A stretch of 64,000 nt of DNA from Desulfovibrio mangrovi (lineage in GTDB: Bacteria; Desulfobacterota; Desulfovibrionia; Desulfovibrionales; Desulfovibrionaceae). How positions within the stretch are numbered: the first letter of the stretch is position 1; each line of letters starts with the position of its first letter. Of the stretch, positions 3,904 to 37,959 are shown piece by piece. The stretch covers positions 3,162,001 to 3,226,000 of the forward strand of contig NZ_CP104208.1 in NCBI RefSeq assembly GCF_026230175.1, written 5' to 3'. Below the pieces are notes generated by a model that did not search any database, was not told where the DNA came from, and saw only the letters and a list, made by a program, of their open reading frames with translations. The position numbers were made by a program, and so were the translations under genes.

Positions 3904-4914
3904 CTACCTTGCGATGTACTTGAGGTTGTCCTGCACCAGCTTGACGCCCTTGGCCACACTGGAGCGGATGGCGTCGAGATTGGTGTCGAAGTCGTCCAGC
4001 GCCAGTTCTTCGCGCACAAGGTTGCGGGCGAAGGTGCCGATGGAAACGCCGTGCACGGTCAGGCCGCACATGGCGGAGAGTTCGCCGGTCTTGCTGTTGG
4101 TGCCGCCGGAGAGCAGAATCTTGCAGGGGATGCCGGTCTTCTCGGTCAGTTCCGCGCAGGCCACGGCCTGCAGGGTGGTGCGGAAGGTGTCCGGTCCGCC
4201 GCTCATGGGCGCACCGTCGGCCTGAATCATCAGGCGATCGCCCGCCACTTCCTTTGCCTGCCGCATGCGGTTGGTGAAATGCTTGTTGGAAAGCTCGGAT
4301 CTGTCGATACACATGCTGATGAACTGGTCGGGCACGAGGGCGGCAATGGTCTTCCAGTCACGCATCACGGCCTCGTCATCGGGGATGATGGCGTGCAGTT
4401 CCACGTTCTCCGCGCCTGCGGCGAGGCAGCGGGGAATGATGTCGTTGAAGTCCACCTTGCGGGTGAAGAACTCGATGGCCTCGTTGGGGCATACGTCTGC
4501 ACAGTTGCCGCAGCCGATGCAGCGCGCGGTGATGACGGAATAGGGTTCGCCCTCCTGAATGGCCAGCTGGTCGCACACGGGCAGGCAGTTGCCGCAGGCG
4601 ATGCAGTCGTCGGCGCGGATGAGCGCCTTGCGCACGTGCGGGTCGCCTTTCAGGCCCACGCTCACATTGATGAAGGGGCGCACGGTCAGCTCGATGCCCA
4701 GTTCCGGAGCCAGTTCGAAGGCGCGGTCGATGCCGCGCATGCCTGCGCGGACCACTTCCTCGTTGGCGGAAAGGTCAATGCCGTGGGCACCGGCAAGGGT
4801 GTAAATGATGCACAGCTTGTAGACCTCTACGGGGTCTTCGTTGCCTGCGCCGCACACGACCTTGAAGTAGCGGCCGCTGTCGAGAATGGATTTGAGTTCT
4901 TCGTATCTGTTCAT
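3904..4914 (-). CDS. LdpA-like ferredoxin/TIM-barrel protein in glycan operon
   Basis: 336 aa. The N-terminal part (YFKVVCGAGNEDP, YTLAGAHGIDLSA) and the C-terminal part (TVHGVSIGTFARN) look like halves of a TIM barrel as in cyanobacterial LdpA. In the middle are two classical 4Fe-4S motifs, CIACGNCLPVC near residues 107-117 and CIGCGNCADVC near 133-143. LdpA-type proteins are known mainly as redox-sensing partners of the cyanobacterial clock; nothing here suggests that role. Placement between an HMGL aldolase (4 bases upstream) and a HAD phosphatase suggests either a redox enzyme on the sugar precursor or an Fe-S-dependent isomerase/lyase. No predicted membrane segment. The family resemblance is from memory and the function is unknown. 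Confidence 0.7.
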   Translation of the reverse strand: MNRYEELKSILDSGRYFKVVCGAGNEDPVEVYKLCIIYTLAGAHGIDLSANEEVVRAGMRGIDRAFELAPELGIELTVRPFINVSVGLKGDPHVRKALIRADDCIACGNCLPVCDQLAIQEGEPYSVITARCIGCGNCADVCPNEAIEFFTRKVDFNDIIPRCLAAGAENVELHAIIPDDEAVMRDWKTIAALVPDQFISMCIDRSELSNKHFTNRMRQAKEVAGDRLMIQADGAPMSGGPDTFRTTLQAVACAELTEKTGIPCKILLSGGTNSKTGELSAMCGLTVHGVSIGTFARNLVREELALDDFDTNLDAIRSSVAKGVKLVQDNLKYIAR

Positions 4915-26452: not shown

Positions 26453-27742
26453 CTAAATTTCGATCTTTATGAGCATTTTTGGCCTGCCGACCTGATGTGC
26501 GGTTTCCTTTCCGGCCAGTGAAGCGTAGCCGCTGTCCAGAAAGCGCTTCAGAATCCTGCGGGCGCTGCGTTCACTTATGCCGAGGCAGGCGGCAAGGTCT
26601 GTGGAGTCGAAAACGCTCTTGCCGGTCTTGTCCATGACCGCGCGTATGCGGTCCACATGGCTGGGGCTGATGCCTATCTCCTCGGCTATGCGCAACTGGG
26701 CGGGGTCTTCAACGCGGGTCCGGTAGCGCAGTTCGTCTTCTTCGGCCAGCGGGCCGCGGATGAAGTCGCCGTGTACGAGAAAGAAGCCACCCTGCGGCAA
26801 GCGGCGGCCGCGTCCCAGCGCTTGGCGTGCGGATTTTTCTGCCTCGAAGGCTGTGGAGCCTATGCCGATGCCGGAGGAGAGCACGATGCCGTTGTCGCGT
26901 CCCCACGACATGAGGTGTGAGAACATGTCCAGATGCACGGGGCTTTCCATGACGCCGCGGGTGGAGAAAATGGCAAACTCCCCTTTGCCTACGTTGAACA
27001 GGCTGCCCTGCACTGCGCGCACGTAGTTGAGCAGTTCGGGGAATATGCGCCCTTCATCCCGCATGTATTCATACTCGTTTTTGTTCTGTTCATCGCTGCG
27101 GTGCAGGCTGACGATCTGGATGGCAATGCCTGCGGAACGCAGGTCGCGGGCGGCGATGTCAGCAAGGAGGCGCTCCATGGTTTCCCGTACCTGCAGGGCG
27201 CTGGGCAGCATGCGGAACGCAGGCAGGCCGAGGGCCGACAGTTCGCTGTATACGGAGCCGAAACCGGAGATGGCCAGATCGGCCTGTCCGGATTCCAGCA
27301 GTTCACGGTGTCGCTGCAGATACGCTTCTTCCCTGTGCTGCACGGCAAAGGGCATGGAGTGCACCTTGTGGAAGGAGATGCCGTACTCGCGAATAACCTC
27401 GCGAAGAATGGCGTTGGTTACCACGTCTATGCTGATGCGTTCAAAGGGAATGCCGCTGCGCTGGATTTCGGAAAAGACGCGCAGCAGGGAATATGCGCCT
27501 CGTTCGATCTGGGCATAAGGCTTGGTCACCACGCCGCGGGCCTTGGCCGCCTCCTGCACGCCGATGCCGGAAAAGAGCAGGCCGTCACATTCGCGCTGAC
27601 TTTGCTCCAGCACTTCATAGGTGTCTTCTATGTGCTCGCGAATGTAGCTCCGGAAGTTCAGGTCGGGAAAGAAGCGCGTGGCAGCTTCAAGCATGACCTG
27701 TACGGAGTCTGATGGACCTATGAGGGCGATTGTTTCACTCAT
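26453..27742 (-). CDS. Putative sensor-regulator with GGDEF-like middle and C-terminal HTH
   Basis: About 429 aa if it starts at the ATG at 27742 (MSETIALIGPS); in-frame Mets up to 27886 exist and no start has a clear ribosome site. Residues 1-200 look like a two-lobed ligand-binding region. About 205-350 has the pattern of a degenerate GGDEF/GTP-cyclohydrolase-III fold (NVGKGEFAIFSTRG, SSGIGIGSTAFEAEKSARQAL), and about 370-429 is a winged helix (GISPSHVDRI, DLAACLGISERSARRILKRF). It is upstream of, and co-directional with, the DUF3100/M20 operon, and divergent from marR. It likely regulates the DUF3100/M20 genes (inference). I do not know a named family. Confidence 0.6.
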   Translation of the reverse strand: MSETIALIGPSDSVQVMLEAATRFFPDLNFRSYIREHIEDTYEVLEQSQRECDGLLFSGIGVQEAAKARGVVTKPYAQIERGAYSLLRVFSEIQRSGIPFERISIDVVTNAILREVIREYGISFHKVHSMPFAVQHREEAYLQRHRELLESGQADLAISGFGSVYSELSALGLPAFRMLPSALQVRETMERLLADIAARDLRSAGIAIQIVSLHRSDEQNKNEYEYMRDEGRIFPELLNYVRAVQGSLFNVGKGEFAIFSTRGVMESPVHLDMFSHLMSWGRDNGIVLSSGIGIGSTAFEAEKSARQALGRGRRLPQGGFFLVHGDFIRGPLAEEDELRYRTRVEDPAQLRIAEEIGISPSHVDRIRAVMDKTGKSVFDSTDLAACLGISERSARRILKRFLDSGYASLAGKETAHQVGRPKMLIKIEI

Positions 27743-27911
27743 CTCTTGCAAGGGAGTCCGGTTGCCGGTGGTTCGCATGTATTCGGTGCGCATGTCTGAT
27801 GTCATGGCCGGAATAGGACCGTAATTCTCGGTACAGTGCCGCGAAATGACAATGATGTCAAGAATGTGGCGGGTGATACCTTGCAAATTGTGAGTGTTTG
27901 CTTTATCTTTA

Positions 27912-27963: not shown

Positions 27964-28446
27964 ATGGATATGATAGACCGCCTGCAGGAGCAGTGGGCAG
28001 CGGAGCGGCCCGACCTGGATGCCTCGTTCATGGGGGTGTGCGGGCGTCTCATGTTGGTGAACAAGCTGCTGGATCAGCGCGCGGAGAGTTTTCTCAAGCC
28101 CTATTGTCTGACCCAGCCGGAGTTTGATGTGCTGGCGGTGCTGCGGCGGTTCGGAGAACCCTACAGGCTTTCTGCCGGGGAGCTGTGCGAGCATGCCCTG
28201 CTTTCTAGCGGTGCCATGACCAACCGTATAGACAGGTTGGAATCGAAAGGGCTTGTGCGGCGCGAGCCAAATCCTCAGGACCGGCGGGGCGTGTTCGTCT
28301 CGCTTACCGCGAGCGGACTGGCGCTTATTGACGGTCTGATGCCGGAACGGCTGGAAAGCCTGCGCGATGCAGTGTCCGTGTTGTCCGATGACGACAGGAA
28401 CCAGTTGGATGCCATTCTCAAACGGTTGGTGACGGCGCTTGCCTGA
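27964..28446 (+). CDS. MarR-family transcriptional regulator
   Basis: 160 aa. Winged helix at residues 45-115: LTQPEFDVLAVLRRFG, LSAGELCEHALLSSGAMTNRIDRLESKGLVRREPNPQDRRGVFVSLT, the last including the D-x-R-x wing motif of MarR proteins. Flanking helices form the dimer. AAGGAG precedes the ATG. It is followed after 25 bases by a LOG-family gene, so it probably controls itself, that gene and possibly the divergent regulator, through the palindrome at 27912-27944. Inducer unknown. Confidence 0.88.
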   Translation: MDMIDRLQEQWAAERPDLDASFMGVCGRLMLVNKLLDQRAESFLKPYCLTQPEFDVLAVLRRFGEPYRLSAGELCEHALLSSGAMTNRIDRLESKGLVRREPNPQDRRGVFVSLTASGLALIDGLMPERLESLRDAVSVLSDDDRNQLDAILKRLVTALA

Positions 28447-29107: not shown

Positions 29108-29959
29108 TTAGGCCACTGCGCCCTGACGGGTTGCCTTGATGAGGATTTCCGTCACGAACTGGCTGTCGTTGCGCGTGGTCCAGTAGTCAGTGACATAGCG
29201 CTCGTAAGTCTCTTCGCCGAGAGCGTATCCGAACTTGTTGGCCCAGCGGCATATCTTGCTGTAGGTCTCGTGAAGGGTGTCGTGCGTGCCGATGTGGTAG
29301 CACGATGCCATCAGGTATCCTCCCAGCTTGACGCGGGTTGTTTCAGGCGCAGGCATCAGCGTTTTCTGCAGAATGCGGATATGCTGCGGTTTGTTCTGCA
29401 TTCTGCTCTTGAGAGAGGAAAAGTTCAGGATGACGGGGCCGGTAATTTCGTTGTTCTGGCTTTCGACATAGTTGGTCCATTCAATATTGATGATGGCCCC
29501 CTTGATGTCGTTGTCGAATTCCTGCTCCTGAAACATGTATTCGCTGGACTCGACGAACTTGATGGAAACTTCGCGGATATCGTTCTCGAGCACCATCTCC
29601 GCTTCGGAGATGAGGTCGTACCAATCCTTGACGGAGACATACTGCCTGCGAATGTCTTCTTGCAGCTTCTCGAGTTCTTCGATCTTGGATGTGAAGGAAC
29701 TTTTGATGGCTTTGTACACGTTGGATGTCGTCTTCCCTTCGATGAAGTCGCGCATCTCTTCGAGCTTGAAGCCCATCTGCTTGTAATATTTGATAACCGG
29801 AACAGCCAGCAGGGATTCGTAGGTGTAGTATCGGTAGTTGTTATAGTCCTGCCGCTGTGAGGTGATAAGATCTATGTTGTCGTAATATCGCAACGCCTTT
29901 TTGGATATGTTGCAGATTCGACTCACATCTCCGATGGAGTATTTGATCTTACTCTTCAT
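29108..29959 (-). CDS. BmrR-like MerR-family regulator of the cut locus
   Basis: 283 aa. MerR DNA-binding domain at 1-75 (YSIGDVSRICNISKKALRYYDNIDL, NYRYYTYESLLAVPVIKYYKQMGF), coiled-coil dimer helix at about 80-125, then a GyrI-like/BmrR-type effector domain (GGYLMASCYHIGTHDTLHETYSKI, EETYERYVTDYW, FVTEILIKA). BmrR-type pockets bind lipophilic or quaternary cations, so choline, trimethylamine or a related amine is the natural candidate ligand here. Both promoters that leave the 31.6-32.1 kb intergenic region have the long spacer and dyad that MerR proteins need. The regulator role is inference from this match. Confidence 0.85.
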   Translation of the reverse strand: MKSKIKYSIGDVSRICNISKKALRYYDNIDLITSQRQDYNNYRYYTYESLLAVPVIKYYKQMGFKLEEMRDFIEGKTTSNVYKAIKSSFTSKIEELEKLQEDIRRQYVSVKDWYDLISEAEMVLENDIREVSIKFVESSEYMFQEQEFDNDIKGAIINIEWTNYVESQNNEITGPVILNFSSLKSRMQNKPQHIRILQKTLMPAPETTRVKLGGYLMASCYHIGTHDTLHETYSKICRWANKFGYALGEETYERYVTDYWTTRNDSQFVTEILIKATRQGAVA

Positions 29960-30172
29960 GGTGTCTACCTCGTCTTGTTGCGCTCGCCTGATTTCGCCCG
30001 CCCGCTTCCCTCGCCGGAATTCTTGCCGCTAACGTTTGTGCCGCTGCAAAAAAAGTCCGATGCGGTGTCATGAACGAAAATCAGCTGCAATAACCCTTGG
30101 CGTCCCTCAAGAAATAATGATGCCGCACTGTTAAGGGACGTCTTGCCCTGACACGCAATGCCCAATTTAATA

Positions 30173-30209
30173 AAAAAGAGGGCCCCCCTGCAGCAGGACA
30201 GCCCTCTTA
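30173..30209 (-). terminator. Terminator of small-protein/DMT carrier operon
   Basis: On the minus strand AAGAGGGC ... GCCCTCTT followed by TTTT, starting 22 bases after the stop of the small gene. A short frame (29965-30234) that overlaps this hairpin is not a gene. The remainder, 29960-30172, is the merR promoter region without a dyad as good as those near 32 kb. Confidence 0.8.
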
Positions 30210-30230
30210 TACAGTCATTCAACCTTACAA

Positions 30231-30497
30231 TCAATCCTTGATGTAGCGGTTGATGGTGGCGGCACCTTCGTCGTGTGCCCGGTAGTAGACCCGCAGTTCG
30301 TTGGCGTGGTCCATGTCGAAGCGGGCCTCTTCAAGCAGGCCGTTGGCTTCGGCGGTCATCAGTGCGTTGATGACAGCGGGCTTCTTGAAGGCCTGGAAGT
30401 GACCGTAGCTGTCCTTCAGGGCAGCCATCACGTCGTCTGCGCAGGCTTCTTCAACCTTGGTGAAATGCTTCAGAATTGCATAGTTAAGCGGTTGCAT
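30231..30497 (-). CDS. Small conserved-looking protein co-transcribed with DMT carrier
   Basis: 88 aa, soluble. YAILKHFTKVEEACADDVMAALKDSYGHF, VINALMTAEANGLLEEARFD and LRVYYRAHDEGAATINRYI read as a small winged-helix-like fold of three helices and a beta hairpin. There is no signal peptide, membrane helix or cysteine cluster. It lies 8 bases after the DMT carrier and before the terminator. No family recognised; a small regulator or cytosolic partner of the carrier is possible. Confidence 0.65.
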   Translation of the reverse strand: MQPLNYAILKHFTKVEEACADDVMAALKDSYGHFQAFKKPAVINALMTAEANGLLEEARFDMDHANELRVYYRAHDEGAATINRYIKD

Positions 30498-30505
30498 GTG
30501 TCCTC

Positions 30506-31579
30506 CTACTTCTTCTTGAGCAGATCAAAGGGGTTCATGGCGATGATGAAGATACCGGCAACCATGACAACAGCTGCTGCCCATGCGACGGGAGGCATGG
30601 ACCAGCCGTCCATACCGAATGCGAGACCGAGAACGATCCAGCAGCAGAAGGGGCCCCAGAAGGAGAAGGTGCCGTTGCAGGACATGCCCAGTGCGGCGCC
30701 GCACATGGCGTTGCCCTTGTACCAGAACATGAAGGTCAGGTAGGCGCTCAGACCGGCCAGAACGAACCATACCATGGCTTCGCCGTCGGTGAAGGAACGC
30801 ATGACCATGCCCACGGTGTCAACTTCGGAGATCATGCCGAAGAGGGGCACCAGAATGATCAGGTTGGAAAGACCGGAAGTAACCTGACGGATGGTGATGC
30901 CGATTTCGGGGTCGATCATGGAGGTGCCGTAACCGCACACGCAGCCTTCAATACCCCAGCACAGAGCAGCGATGAAGCCGAAGAACATGCCCATGACAAG
31001 GCCGTCCGGCACTTCGTCGCCCAGACCGGTGCTGCCGATCATGAAGCTGGCGAGGAAGCAGATGGCGATACCGAGCAGCATGCGGCTGGTCAGTTCCTGC
31101 TTGAAGAGGAAACGGCCGAGAATGGCGCCGATGGCGGGGCACAGAGCGCTGATCGGAACAACGATGGAACCGGCTTTCTGCAGACCTACAACGTAGGCGG
31201 TGCTGGCGAGGGGGCCGCCGATGATGGCAGCGGCAACCATGACCAGACCGGGCTTGGTCTTGATGCAGCGTACAAAGTCACCGAAGCGGCCGCGGGCCTT
31301 GGCAATGCCCATGGCCCAGAAGGCGCTGCAGGTGTCAGTGGTTGCGGCACCGAGTGCGCTCAGCAGGTAGGTTACGGCAAATACGGAAAGGCCGGAATTT
31401 TCGCCGTACCATTCAATCCATACACCCTTGGACATGCCGAGGGTCATGAATGCGGTATAGAAACCGTACAGCAGGCCGGAAAGCAGGGCGATGATGATGC
31501 CCTTACGCTTGAAGTCAGCCGCCAGTCTGGTTTTGGCAGCAATGGCTGCCGGGTTAGGTAAAACTAAGGTTTGCCCCAT
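30506..31579 (-). CDS. DMT-superfamily (EamA-like) transporter of the cut locus
   Basis: 357 aa from the ATG at 31579, 6 bases after AAGGAG; the frame extends upstream without support. Ten membrane helices in two EamA-like repeats (GIIIALLSGLLYGFYTAFM, GLVMGMFFGFIAALCWGIEG, VAWAAAVVMVAGIFIIAM). AYVVGLQKAGSIVVPISALCPAIGAILGRFLF is the classical end of an EamA repeat. Its promoter carries the same dyad as the cut operon promoter, so it belongs to the regulon. It may import choline or export trimethylamine; both fit, and no other choline carrier is visible in the window. Confidence 0.82.
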   Translation of the reverse strand: MGQTLVLPNPAAIAAKTRLAADFKRKGIIIALLSGLLYGFYTAFMTLGMSKGVWIEWYGENSGLSVFAVTYLLSALGAATTDTCSAFWAMGIAKARGRFGDFVRCIKTKPGLVMVAAAIIGGPLASTAYVVGLQKAGSIVVPISALCPAIGAILGRFLFKQELTSRMLLGIAICFLASFMIGSTGLGDEVPDGLVMGMFFGFIAALCWGIEGCVCGYGTSMIDPEIGITIRQVTSGLSNLIILVPLFGMISEVDTVGMVMRSFTDGEAMVWFVLAGLSAYLTFMFWYKGNAMCGAALGMSCNGTFSFWGPFCCWIVLGLAFGMDGWSMPPVAWAAAVVMVAGIFIIAMNPFDLLKKK

Positions 31580-31671
31580 GTTCATCTCCTTGCACCTATT
31601 GGTAGTTTCGGGTTCTACCATTTTGTGTGTGTAATGTAGCCCACTTGTGCACGTAGGGTTTTCCAATTGTT

Positions 31672-31702
31672 GTCATAGCATTCCCCTTAAGGGGAAGGTC
31701 AA
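31672..31702 (-). promoter_or_regulatory. MerR-type promoter of the DMT carrier operon
   Basis: Minus strand: -35 TTGACC (31702-31697), 19-bp spacer, -10 TATGAC (31677-31672). The spacer begins with the perfect 16-bp dyad TTCCCCTTAAGGGGAA (31681-31696), which abuts the -35. A 19-bp spacer with central dyad symmetry is the signature of promoters activated by MerR-family DNA twisting. The leader to the ATG is about 85 bases. Confidence 0.75.
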
Positions 31703-32044
31703 TGGCAAATTGTAAGAATGCACAAAAGTGGCGCTCTAAAAAATCAAAGGGCGCACCTGCAAAATAGTCTTTTTGCTTCAATGTCGCGCTATTGAGGGCG
31801 CGTGTGCTTTTTTTCACCGCTTGAAAATATTTTTTCAGGAAAGCCGCTGTTTGTACGCACAATTCGTAAAATCAGGCCCTTAAGGGCACCTTTCTTCCCT
31901 CCAAGGGGCATTTTTTGGCCCGAATCTCATCCCTTTTCTGCCCATTTCCGATGCCTGCGATTTTTTTCTCAAGGCAAAATCAAATAAAATCTCCTGCGAT
32001 AACAGGGTGTAAAAGCCCTATCCCCGTTTTTTTTTGAAAGGGTG
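31703..32044. other. AT-rich control region between divergent cut promoters
   Basis: 342 bases with no credible gene. It holds a perfect palindrome GCCCTTAAGGGC (31876-31887), a degenerate copy of the promoter dyad TTCCCT-CCAA-GGGGCA (31895-31910), and long T/A tracts up to the cut promoter. These could be auxiliary MerR sites or bend elements. Confidence 0.5.
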
Positions 32045-32076
32045 TTGACTTTCCCCTTTGGGGGAAGGGCTAGGGT
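32045..32076 (+). promoter_or_regulatory. MerR-type promoter of the cut microcompartment operon
   Basis: -35 TTGACT (32045-32050), 20-bp spacer, -10 TAGGGT (32071-32076). The dyad TTCCCCTTTGGGGGAA (32051-32066) abuts the -35 exactly as in the opposite promoter at 31672-31702. The leader of about 80 bases before the first shell gene includes a small hairpin (GCCTC-ATCCC-GAGGC). Confidence 0.78.
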
Positions 32077-32163
32077 TTACGCACGCTGGGCAAAAGTAGG
32101 CCCGAAGGAGACGCCTCATCCCGAGGCATAAATGAAATAGCTAAGCACTGAGGTGGTAGCGGA

Positions 32164-32790
32164 ATGGGTGAATTTAAGAGGTACTACGGCGAAGAGGCTC
32201 TGGGACTCATCGAGACCCTCGGAATGGTTCCGGCAATCAACGGCGCGGACAAGATGCTCAAGGCCGCCAATGTTGAACTGATTTCTTACGAAAACGTGGG
32301 CTCCACGCTGGTAACCGTTATGGTGAAGGGCGACGTGGCTGCCGTTCAGGCCGCTGTGGACGCAGGCAAGGTTGCCGCCGGCGAAATCGGCAAGCTGACC
32401 GCATACAATGTTATGCCCCGTCCCATCCGCCCCGTGGGCGAAATCGTTTCCGTGCACGGCATTGAAGACGAAGAACTGGAAGGCAGCAGCGAACGCCCCC
32501 GTGCCATGGGCCTGATCGAAACCTTCGGCATCGTATACGTGCTTGAAGCTGCTGACGCAATGCTCAAGACCGCCGACGTGGAACTGATCGGCTACGAAAA
32601 CGTGGCTTCCGGCTACATCTCCGTTCTGGTTCAGGGCGACGTTGCAGCATGCAAGGCTGCTGTTGAAGCCGGTGTGAAGGCTGTGGAAGCCATGGGCACC
32701 AACGTATACAGCTCCCTCGTCATTCCCACCCCCCATCCTGACGTAGCCCGCATTACCAAGCGTTACAGACTGGAAAACCTGCTTCCCTAA
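32164..32790 (+). CDS. Tandem-domain shell protein (BMC-T trimer)
   Basis: 208 aa with two BMC domains. The first (about 8-92) has GLIETLGMVPAINGADKMLKAANVELISYENVGSTLVTVMVKGDV in the usual order; the second (about 115-198) repeats GLIETFGIVYVLEAADAMLKTADVELIGYENV. An acidic linker of about 20 residues connects them. Such proteins form pseudo-hexameric trimers in microcompartment facets, some with gated pores. The pore loops VGST and VASG differ between the halves, and there is no cysteine at either, so no Fe-S cluster is expected. First gene of the cut operon, about 90 bases downstream of the MerR-type promoter. Confidence 0.92.
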   Translation: MGEFKRYYGEEALGLIETLGMVPAINGADKMLKAANVELISYENVGSTLVTVMVKGDVAAVQAAVDAGKVAAGEIGKLTAYNVMPRPIRPVGEIVSVHGIEDEELEGSSERPRAMGLIETFGIVYVLEAADAMLKTADVELIGYENVASGYISVLVQGDVAACKAAVEAGVKAVEAMGTNVYSSLVIPTPHPDVARITKRYRLENLLP

Positions 32791-32894: not shown

Positions 32895-36952
<4,058 letters not shown>

Positions 36953-37029: not shown

Positions 37030-37959
37030 GTGATCGAAAGAAAAGCTCTCATTTTCAACATACAGAAATACAACATGTATGATGGTCCCGGCGTGCGCAC
37101 ACTGGTGTTCTTCAAGGGATGCCCCCTGCGTTGCAAGTGGTGTTCGAATCCTGAAGGGCAGCTCAGGCAGTATCAGGTGCTTTTCAAGAAGAACAGCTGC
37201 GTCAACTGCGGCGCGTGCGTGCAGGTCTGCCCCGCAGGCGTGCACCGCATGACCGCCGACAATCTGCACGAGATCGTCGAATCCGCCGAATGCATCGGCT
37301 GCCGCAAGTGCGAGCAGGCATGCCCTGCCACCGCGCTAGCCATTGCCGGTGAGAGCAAGACCATCTCCGAGCTGCTGGACATCATCGAGGAAGACCGTCC
37401 CTTCTACGAAGTCTCGGGCGGCGGCGTTACCCTTGGCGGCGGCGAAGTGCTCATGCAGCCGGAAGCGGCCACCAGCCTGCTCATGGCCTGCAAGCAGCGC
37501 GGCATCAACACCGCCATGGAGACCTGCGGCTATGCGCGTCCCGAGGTGATCATGAAGGTGGCCGAATTCACCGACCTCTTCCTCTTCGACATCAAGCACA
37601 TGGACTCCGACAAGCATTACGAGCTTACCGGCGTGCGCAACGAGTGGATTCTCAACAACCTCAAGTGCCTGCTGGAAAACAGGAACAACGTGAAGATCAG
37701 AGTGCCCCTGATGCGGGGCGTGAATGACGCCGAGCACGAGATCGTTCAGATGATCGAGTTCCTGAAGCCGTATCAGGATATGAAGAATTTCAAGGGAATA
37801 GATCTGTTGCCTTACCACAAGATGGGCGTGAACAAGTACAACCAGCTGCGCTGGGAATACCCCATGGAAGGCAAGCCGGACCTGAACGAGGAAGACCTCG
37901 CCCGTATCGAGGCAGTGATCCGGAAGTACGATTTTCCGGTGGCCGTGGTCCGGCATTAA
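37030..37959 (+). CDS. cutD: Choline TMA-lyase activating enzyme (radical SAM)
   Basis: 309 aa, GTG start. KGCPLRCKWCSNPEG holds the radical-SAM C-x3-C-x2-C motif, followed by two ferredoxin-type 4Fe-4S motifs (CVNCGACVQVCPAG, CIGCRKCEQACPA), VSGGGVTLGGGEVLMQ and FLFDIKHMD. It abstracts H from Gly821 of CutC using S-adenosylmethionine. The 77-base gap after cutC has no terminator. The same family as the activase at 55-56 kb, but paired with its own lyase. Confidence 0.96.
   Translation: MIERKALIFNIQKYNMYDGPGVRTLVFFKGCPLRCKWCSNPEGQLRQYQVLFKKNSCVNCGACVQVCPAGVHRMTADNLHEIVESAECIGCRKCEQACPATALAIAGESKTISELLDIIEEDRPFYEVSGGGVTLGGGEVLMQPEAATSLLMACKQRGINTAMETCGYARPEVIMKVAEFTDLFLFDIKHMDSDKHYELTGVRNEWILNNLKCLLENRNNVKIRVPLMRGVNDAEHEIVQMIEFLKPYQDMKNFKGIDLLPYHKMGVNKYNQLRWEYPMEGKPDLNEEDLARIEAVIRKYDFPVAVVRH

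Follow-up and report, generated by a model that had tools for sequence, protein, structure and literature searches.

A MerR-family regulator as the probable common switch of two divergent long-spacer promoters at the cut locus of Desulfovibrio mangrovi

The regulator and its described relatives

Bacterial choline cleavage is the source of trimethylamine in the gut. In Desulfovibrio alaskensis, the MerR-like protein Dde_3291 is reportedly, in work by Kuehl and colleagues in mBio in 2014, a choline-dependent activator of the choline cluster. The D. alaskensis homologue in the NCBIfam family NF053782, which we take to be Dde_3291 (the model name reads dde3219), belongs over the cut-off to the same family as the regulator considered here and has the same position next to a type I cut cluster. 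MerR proteins bend and undertwist the DNA and thereby activate promoters whose spacers measure 19-20 bp; the activators BmrR, from Bacillus subtilis, and EcmrR, from Escherichia coli, work at promoters with 19-bp spacers (PMC8113463; PMC9909328).

We analyzed a 64,000-nucleotide stretch of the D. mangrovi genome (NZ_CP104208.1, positions 3,162,001 to 3,226,000; hereafter the window), in which a MerR-family regulator of 283 amino acids is encoded on the minus strand at 29108..29959. The protein passes NF053782, named "choline utilization transcriptional activator", with 495.4 bits against a cut-off of 450, and is therefore a regulator of the named kind; because the family already bears this name, the role of choline activator is not new. 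It combines an N-terminal MerR winged helix-turn-helix (PF00376, 44.5 bits, cut-off 28.2; PF13411, 44.3 bits, cut-off 21.6) with a GyrI-like effector domain (PF06445, 50.3 bits, cut-off 26). In a confident single-chain AlphaFold2 model (mean pLDDT 91.5, pTM 0.78), a long helix at residues 81-125, a feature of dimer coiled coils, follows the DNA-binding domain. The best Foldseek matches were EcmrR and BmrR, among them an entry titled BmrR bound to acetylcholine. An earlier sequence-only reading of this DNA had attributed a BmrR-like pocket to the regulator, with which both the Pfam domain and the Foldseek matches agree.

Domain order and fold are thus common to the window's MerR, BmrR and EcmrR, whereas sequence identity to the latter two is about 20% or less. 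In an alignment of 50 of the 57 MerR sequences collected from the class (A1; L063, L065, L082, L084, L086, L088 and L091 were left out), E253, W260 and E271 are invariant and Y255 is nearly so. E253, Y255 and W260 face identical letters of EcmrR in a significant alignment, the alignment with BmrR at this place being non-significant (0.6 bits). In BmrR, the cationic ligand is contacted by a buried acidic residue, E253. The BmrR-type sensors control a drug pump, whereas the predicted targets here are a microcompartment operon and a carrier; the sites described below precede an EamA carrier of unknown substrate and the cut operon, not a multidrug efflux gene. CueR, ZntR, SoxR and MerR itself are like the window's protein in the DNA-binding domain and in their long-spacer promoters, but it scores far below the NCBIfam cut-offs of these regulators (44.5 against 147.4 bits for CueR) and carries a different sensor domain.

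The signal is likely to be choline rather than trimethylamine, as judged from the NCBIfam name and the reported D. alaskensis work. The sequence-only reading had predicted a switch for either compound; the family name bears out choline, and no support was found for trimethylamine. A regulator that acts as we propose below and responds to another effector, be it a quaternary amine, trimethylamine or a downstream product such as acetaldehyde, is unlikely, albeit the most probable of the alternatives weighed here. BmrR-like pockets bind varied cations, and the computed results do not separate choline from betaine or carnitine. The family name, the occurrence of acetylcholine-bound BmrR in the match list of the sensor domain and the joint control of the CutC operon, which fits sensing of the substrate, all argue for choline.

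Two divergent promoters with long spacers

The regulator gene lies behind a minus-strand unit that starts with a DMT/EamA-family membrane carrier (30506..31585, Pfam EamA, start at 31585 or 31579). The next gene of that unit encodes an 88-amino-acid protein of unknown function (minus strand, 30231..30497), which stands beside the carrier in most of the compared loci and has no match in Pfam or NCBIfam. Between this gene and the MerR gene, a terminator scan placed terminator-like hairpins at 30177..30199 on the minus strand. The scanned stretch held five such sites where 2.8 were expected, hence the hairpins only weakly suggest that the MerR gene has a promoter of its own. On the plus strand, the cut operon opens with a tandem BMC shell protein (32164..32790, Pfam BMC), followed by an acylating acetaldehyde dehydrogenase-like gene (32895..34397; best NCBIfam match EutH_ACDH, below its cut-off), cutC for choline trimethylamine-lyase (34412..36952; TIGR04394, 1644.6 bits, cut-off 1050) and cutD for the activating enzyme (37030..37959; TIGR04395, 564.9 bits, cut-off 360).

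The two promoters diverge between these units and extend from -10 box to -10 box over 31672-32076, the coordinates of the sequence-only reading being exact to the base. By inspection of the sequence, the DMT promoter (minus strand) has its -35 box TTGACC at 31697..31702, directly 3' of it the dyad TTCCCCTTAAGGGGAA at 31681..31696, and the -10 box TATGAC at 31672..31677, preceded by TGC, at a spacer of 19 bp, where a TA recurs in relatives. The promoter of the shell (BMC/cut) operon (plus strand) has the -35 box TTGACT at 32045..32050, directly followed by the dyad TTCCCCTTTGGGGGAA at 32051..32066 within a 20-bp spacer, and the -10 box TAGGGT at 32071..32076, placed from the sequence and from the -10 spacing of relatives. 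All 16 bp of the DMT dyad form a perfect palindrome, and in the shell dyad the 6-bp arms flank an asymmetric TTTG; the dyads end 101 and 97 bases, respectively, before the start codons used. Both -10 boxes are weak matches to TATAAT, and a search of 29900-32200 for conventional promoters (spacers of 16-18 bp) reported none at either place. A palindrome within the 19-20 bp spacer of a sigma-70 promoter is a feature of the MerR family and is present on both sides. The observation that TTCCCC-N4-GGGGAA dyads abut the -35 boxes within spacers of 19 bp (DMT) and 20 bp (shell) is therefore correct to the base and, as a whole, confirmed. Its classification as MerR-type is supported by layout and conservation, and the further statement that the two architectures are identical holds for the common design but not for the spacers, whose difference recurs across genomes. 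The interpretation then built on it was right in outline, half of it being known already, and is partly supported.

We consider it probable (about 0.84) that one one-component MerR switch works both sides of this control region. A dimer of the 29108-29959 product would sit on each 16-bp dyad, as knowledge of MerR proteins leads one to expect. With a good -35 and a weak -10 box 19 bp (carrier) or 20 bp (shell/cut operon) apart, RNA polymerase would be poorly able to use both boxes as long as the ligand is absent. Choline, the inducer suggested by the database name and the reported D. alaskensis work, would fill the BmrR-like C-terminal pocket, and the liganded protein, if it behaves as MerR proteins generally do, would kink and undertwist the spacer so that the boxes align. 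The carrier unit and the microcompartment/CutC operon would in this way be switched on together.

Exact TTCCCC-N4-GGGGAA dyads occur five times in the 3.95-Mb genome, twice in the window and there both times in the control region. When TTGAC is required one base upstream, a first-order Markov model predicts 0.0006 sites for a whole genome and 3e-7 for the control region of 584 bp; because two such sites were found, 342 bp apart, their origin by chance is excluded. The three remaining exact dyads have no preceding TTGAC and were rejected as further targets, 106235 and 107521 lying around an EamA gene and 2169303 inside a receiver-domain gene. The pair near the EamA carrier (G000:C1:106235 and 107521; L005) is partly retained elsewhere, one of the two dyads being kept in G210 (G210:C13:114346, L138). 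As these two flank a gene, lack a -35 box and look terminator-like, the palindromes of the control region could be read as terminators or chance repeats too, but this is scarcely credible given the Markov expectation, the fixed distance to both boxes across loci and a terminator scan that found no match at either dyad. When up to three mismatches were allowed, the window's genome held 20 sites against 18 in the reversed control; there is no excess at this level, and therefore we place weight only on exact or near-exact sites.

Conservation of the operator and its association with the regulator

In a search with NF053782 across 348 genomes of the class (Desulfovibrionia), 21 genomes lay over the cut-off; scores of 317 bits or more were reached at 57 loci, which belong to 52 genomes, the next scores being 55. 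Cut-linked relatives with the same operator are left out by the 450-bit cut-off, with 317-426 bits in the class. Of the 20 other loci that pass the cut-off, 17 have MerR, the 88-aa gene and the carrier divergent from BMC1, aldehyde dehydrogenase and cutC. Sites were scored as matches to 17 fixed positions, with 700 bp examined upstream of DMT genes. Of the 31 loci with BMC1, 29 have a site of at least 14/17 upstream of that gene, and of the 35 loci with DMT, 25 have one upstream of DMT, so that the dyad does recur in other cut loci, a check that the sequence-only reading had itself proposed. Two of the ten DMT genes that have no site of their own (L087 and L090) were dropped from the DMT spacer count, their match being the shell site on the other strand, and eight have no match. 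In five of these eight (L083, L084, L086, L088 and L091), the carrier is not divergent from the shell operon, and their genomes still have sites where the cut operon begins (gene layout inspected in G203 and G207).

With -10 boxes scored by weights that approximate E. coli frequencies, 28 of 29 shell sites have their best -10 box at spacer 20, and 20 of 25 DMT sites have theirs at spacer 19. The carrier and shell promoters thus keep different spacers, 19 versus 20 bp. Sites also occur in other settings. Where the DMT gene, the 88-aa gene and MerR are parted from the cut operon (L062 near 6556, minus strand; G138:C3:23056, minus strand), the site faces away from DMT and towards no clear gene. 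In G240, a site with a 19-bp spacer and the box TATCAT (L139:4877, minus strand) precedes a BMC and aldehyde dehydrogenase operon on a different contig from cutC.

The promoter of the MerR gene itself was considered as a target and rejected: the best upstream score was at most 13/17 in 54 of 57 loci, the window's included, and the remaining three matches (14/17; L064-L066) are the shell site read backwards. Given the hairpins upstream of the MerR gene and the absence of a site there, the gene is likely to be expressed on its own here and not to be autoregulated through the dyad.

The site follows the regulator gene rather than cutC. When no more than one mismatch was allowed, a scan of the 348 genomes gave 58 sites, spread over 47 genomes (20 in 15 in the reversed control), 49 of the 58 within 6 kb of a CutC gene. 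CutC is present in 51 of the 52 genomes with an NF053782 match of at least 300 bits, and among 66 CutC genomes the site is present in 43 of the 51 that have the regulator and in 1 of the 15 that lack it (Fisher p = 5e-8, which overstates the case because related genomes are not independent). The single regulator-free case, G155, was discounted, its site being on another contig and within an open reading frame, as were the sites in G195, G214 and G305, which have neither CutC nor MerR and whose sites overlap mechanically listed open reading frames or adjoin unrelated genes. The best score in the fetched stretches of the 15 regulator-free CutC genomes was 13, and none of the five MerR-free loci with BMC1 upstream of cutC (G202, G200, G071, G015 and G182) has a site. 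Eight genomes with both CutC and MerR have no match at up to one mismatch, among them G288 and G307, which score 15/17. G205 has a site at two mismatches of a longer pattern, and in G282 and G309 the MerR gene lies about 24 kb from cutC, yet the shell promoter has a site of 15/17 with spacer 20. G242, G244 and G245, which have CutC and MerR, reach only 12-13/17, and this counts against our explanation. The claim that the MerR gene at 29108-29959 is the partner of the dyads is upheld, since the site follows that gene across genomes.

The layout alone names no protein, and genes for a MarR (27964-28446) and an HTH_23 protein (26453-27886) lie nearby; in PMC9909328, a LacI-type regulator, FruR, is named at a promoter with a 20-bp spacer. 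That the dyads serve such a different type of factor, binding in the 20-bp spacer, is nevertheless very improbable, as the site tracks the NF053782 gene even where the two are unlinked and recurs beside it in Bacillota. A relative of the regulator itself deserves more weight. The window's gene had been called the only MerR gene nearby, which is true of the neighborhood, but a second MerR of the same family is encoded elsewhere in the genome (G000:C1:3007191-3008024; L073:9192-10025). It scores 420 bits, is 60% identical over its length to the window's protein and is sister to the cut-linked protein within the genus (clade support 99/95), and it could share the two sites. Its own locus was rejected as a target, having no site within three mismatches near the gene, which leaves room for the paralogue, alone or with its neighbor, to act at both dyads. 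We regard this as improbable: a second strong family member occurs in only five of the 52 genomes that have one (G000, G100, G118, G138 and G210), yet the site is found in 43 of 51 genomes with CutC and MerR, and the paralogue adjoins lpd, EamA and YitT genes, not cut genes.

The switch proposed for the window's MerR appears to extend beyond the class. When named genomes were searched with the regulator alignment, 80 of 153 relatives were retained, comprising 46 Bacillota, 14 other sulfate-reducing/delta and 20 Desulfovibrionia loci (groups assigned by hand), with many Bacillota (Clostridium, Lacrimispora, Anaerovorax) and other sulfate reducers (Desulfoluna, Desulfobotulus, Desulfopila). Sites of at least 15/17 were present in all 14 other sulfate-reducing/delta loci and in 31 of the 46 Bacillota loci; first-order shuffles reached this score in 0 of 70 and 0 of 230 cases, respectively. 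Five of the 20 Desulfovibrionia loci in this set have a strong site, and several of the 15 rows without one are short contigs or have the MerR gene away from the cut promoter. The 14 sulfate-reducing/delta loci hold 27 sites, with a spacer of 19 in 10 and of 20 in 17. In Bacillota, the best -10 box lies exactly 20 bp from the -35 box in 48 of 48 strong sites and reads TATAAT, TATACT or, once, TACAAT. Because these boxes are near consensus, the Bacillota sites are, at the level of sequence, the clearest evidence for a real long spacer. Three Bacillota proteins match NF053782 below the cut-off, at 348-415 bits. Eleven Bacillota loci (L242, L245, L272, L275, L278, L281-L284, L286 and L290) also have a site about 120 bases before the MerR gene, near position 4880, suggesting that MerR may be autoregulated there, which is not seen in the window's class.

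A candidate third target and the meaning of the switch

One of the 58 sites precedes an alkaline phosphatase gene (Pfam PF00245), which is followed by a YibE/F gene; sites before this gene pair lie at L137:5011 and, in the window's own genome, at G000:C1:2278553-2278574 (L105:9954). Close orthologues of this phosphatase (at least 74% identity in the genus) are present in six of the 10 genomes of the genus, the window's own included, and all six have an upstream site scoring 14-16, a background of 9 in 400 random 1600-base stretches reaching 14. When the otherwise diverged upstream regions of the phosphatase genes are aligned, the longest invariant block is TTGACCTT, followed after one base by CCC. 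A TA-led -10 box lies at spacer 20 in four of the six, the -10 box being poor in the window's species and in G210. A scan of the genus with the longer pattern gave 16 matches against one in the control, of which nine lie at the start of the cut operon, three before DMT, three before the phosphatase and one elsewhere. Outside the genus, no site was found at 12 phosphatase orthologues in genus g33 or at those of G088 and G288, and the orthologue of G307 has a site scoring 14. At the phosphatase, the window's genome also has a second, weaker dyad, about 190 bp upstream. On these sequence comparisons, the phosphatase is a good candidate for a third target of the regulator within the genus.

Taken together with the range of the operator, this leads us to a tentative proposal, for which we would offer somewhat less than even odds: an old, portable choline MerR switch may belong to the type I cut clusters of sulfate reducers and Bacillota, and a secreted alkaline phosphatase may have been recruited to it in the genus. 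The operator of such a switch would take the form TTGAC-N-TTCCCC-N4-GGGGAA, followed by a -10 box at 19 or 20 bp. We would guess that the phosphatase could split phosphocholine outside the cytoplasm and that the choline released would supply the microcompartment.

Our literature search returned general MerR papers and none dealing with the operator or with MerR control of cut genes, an absence that means little. As far as the searched literature tells, the operator itself, the way it follows the regulator, its occurrence in two phyla, the conserved split between 19 and 20 bp and the phosphatase candidate are new.

In summary, a short conserved operator paired with one regulator family provides a sequence test of which cut clusters answer to this regulator, and the operator is a possible promoter part for a choline biosensor. 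A catabolic organelle, not a drug pump, is the predicted target of this MerR protein of the drug-sensor type, and the alkaline phosphatase may be a choline-scavenging partner.
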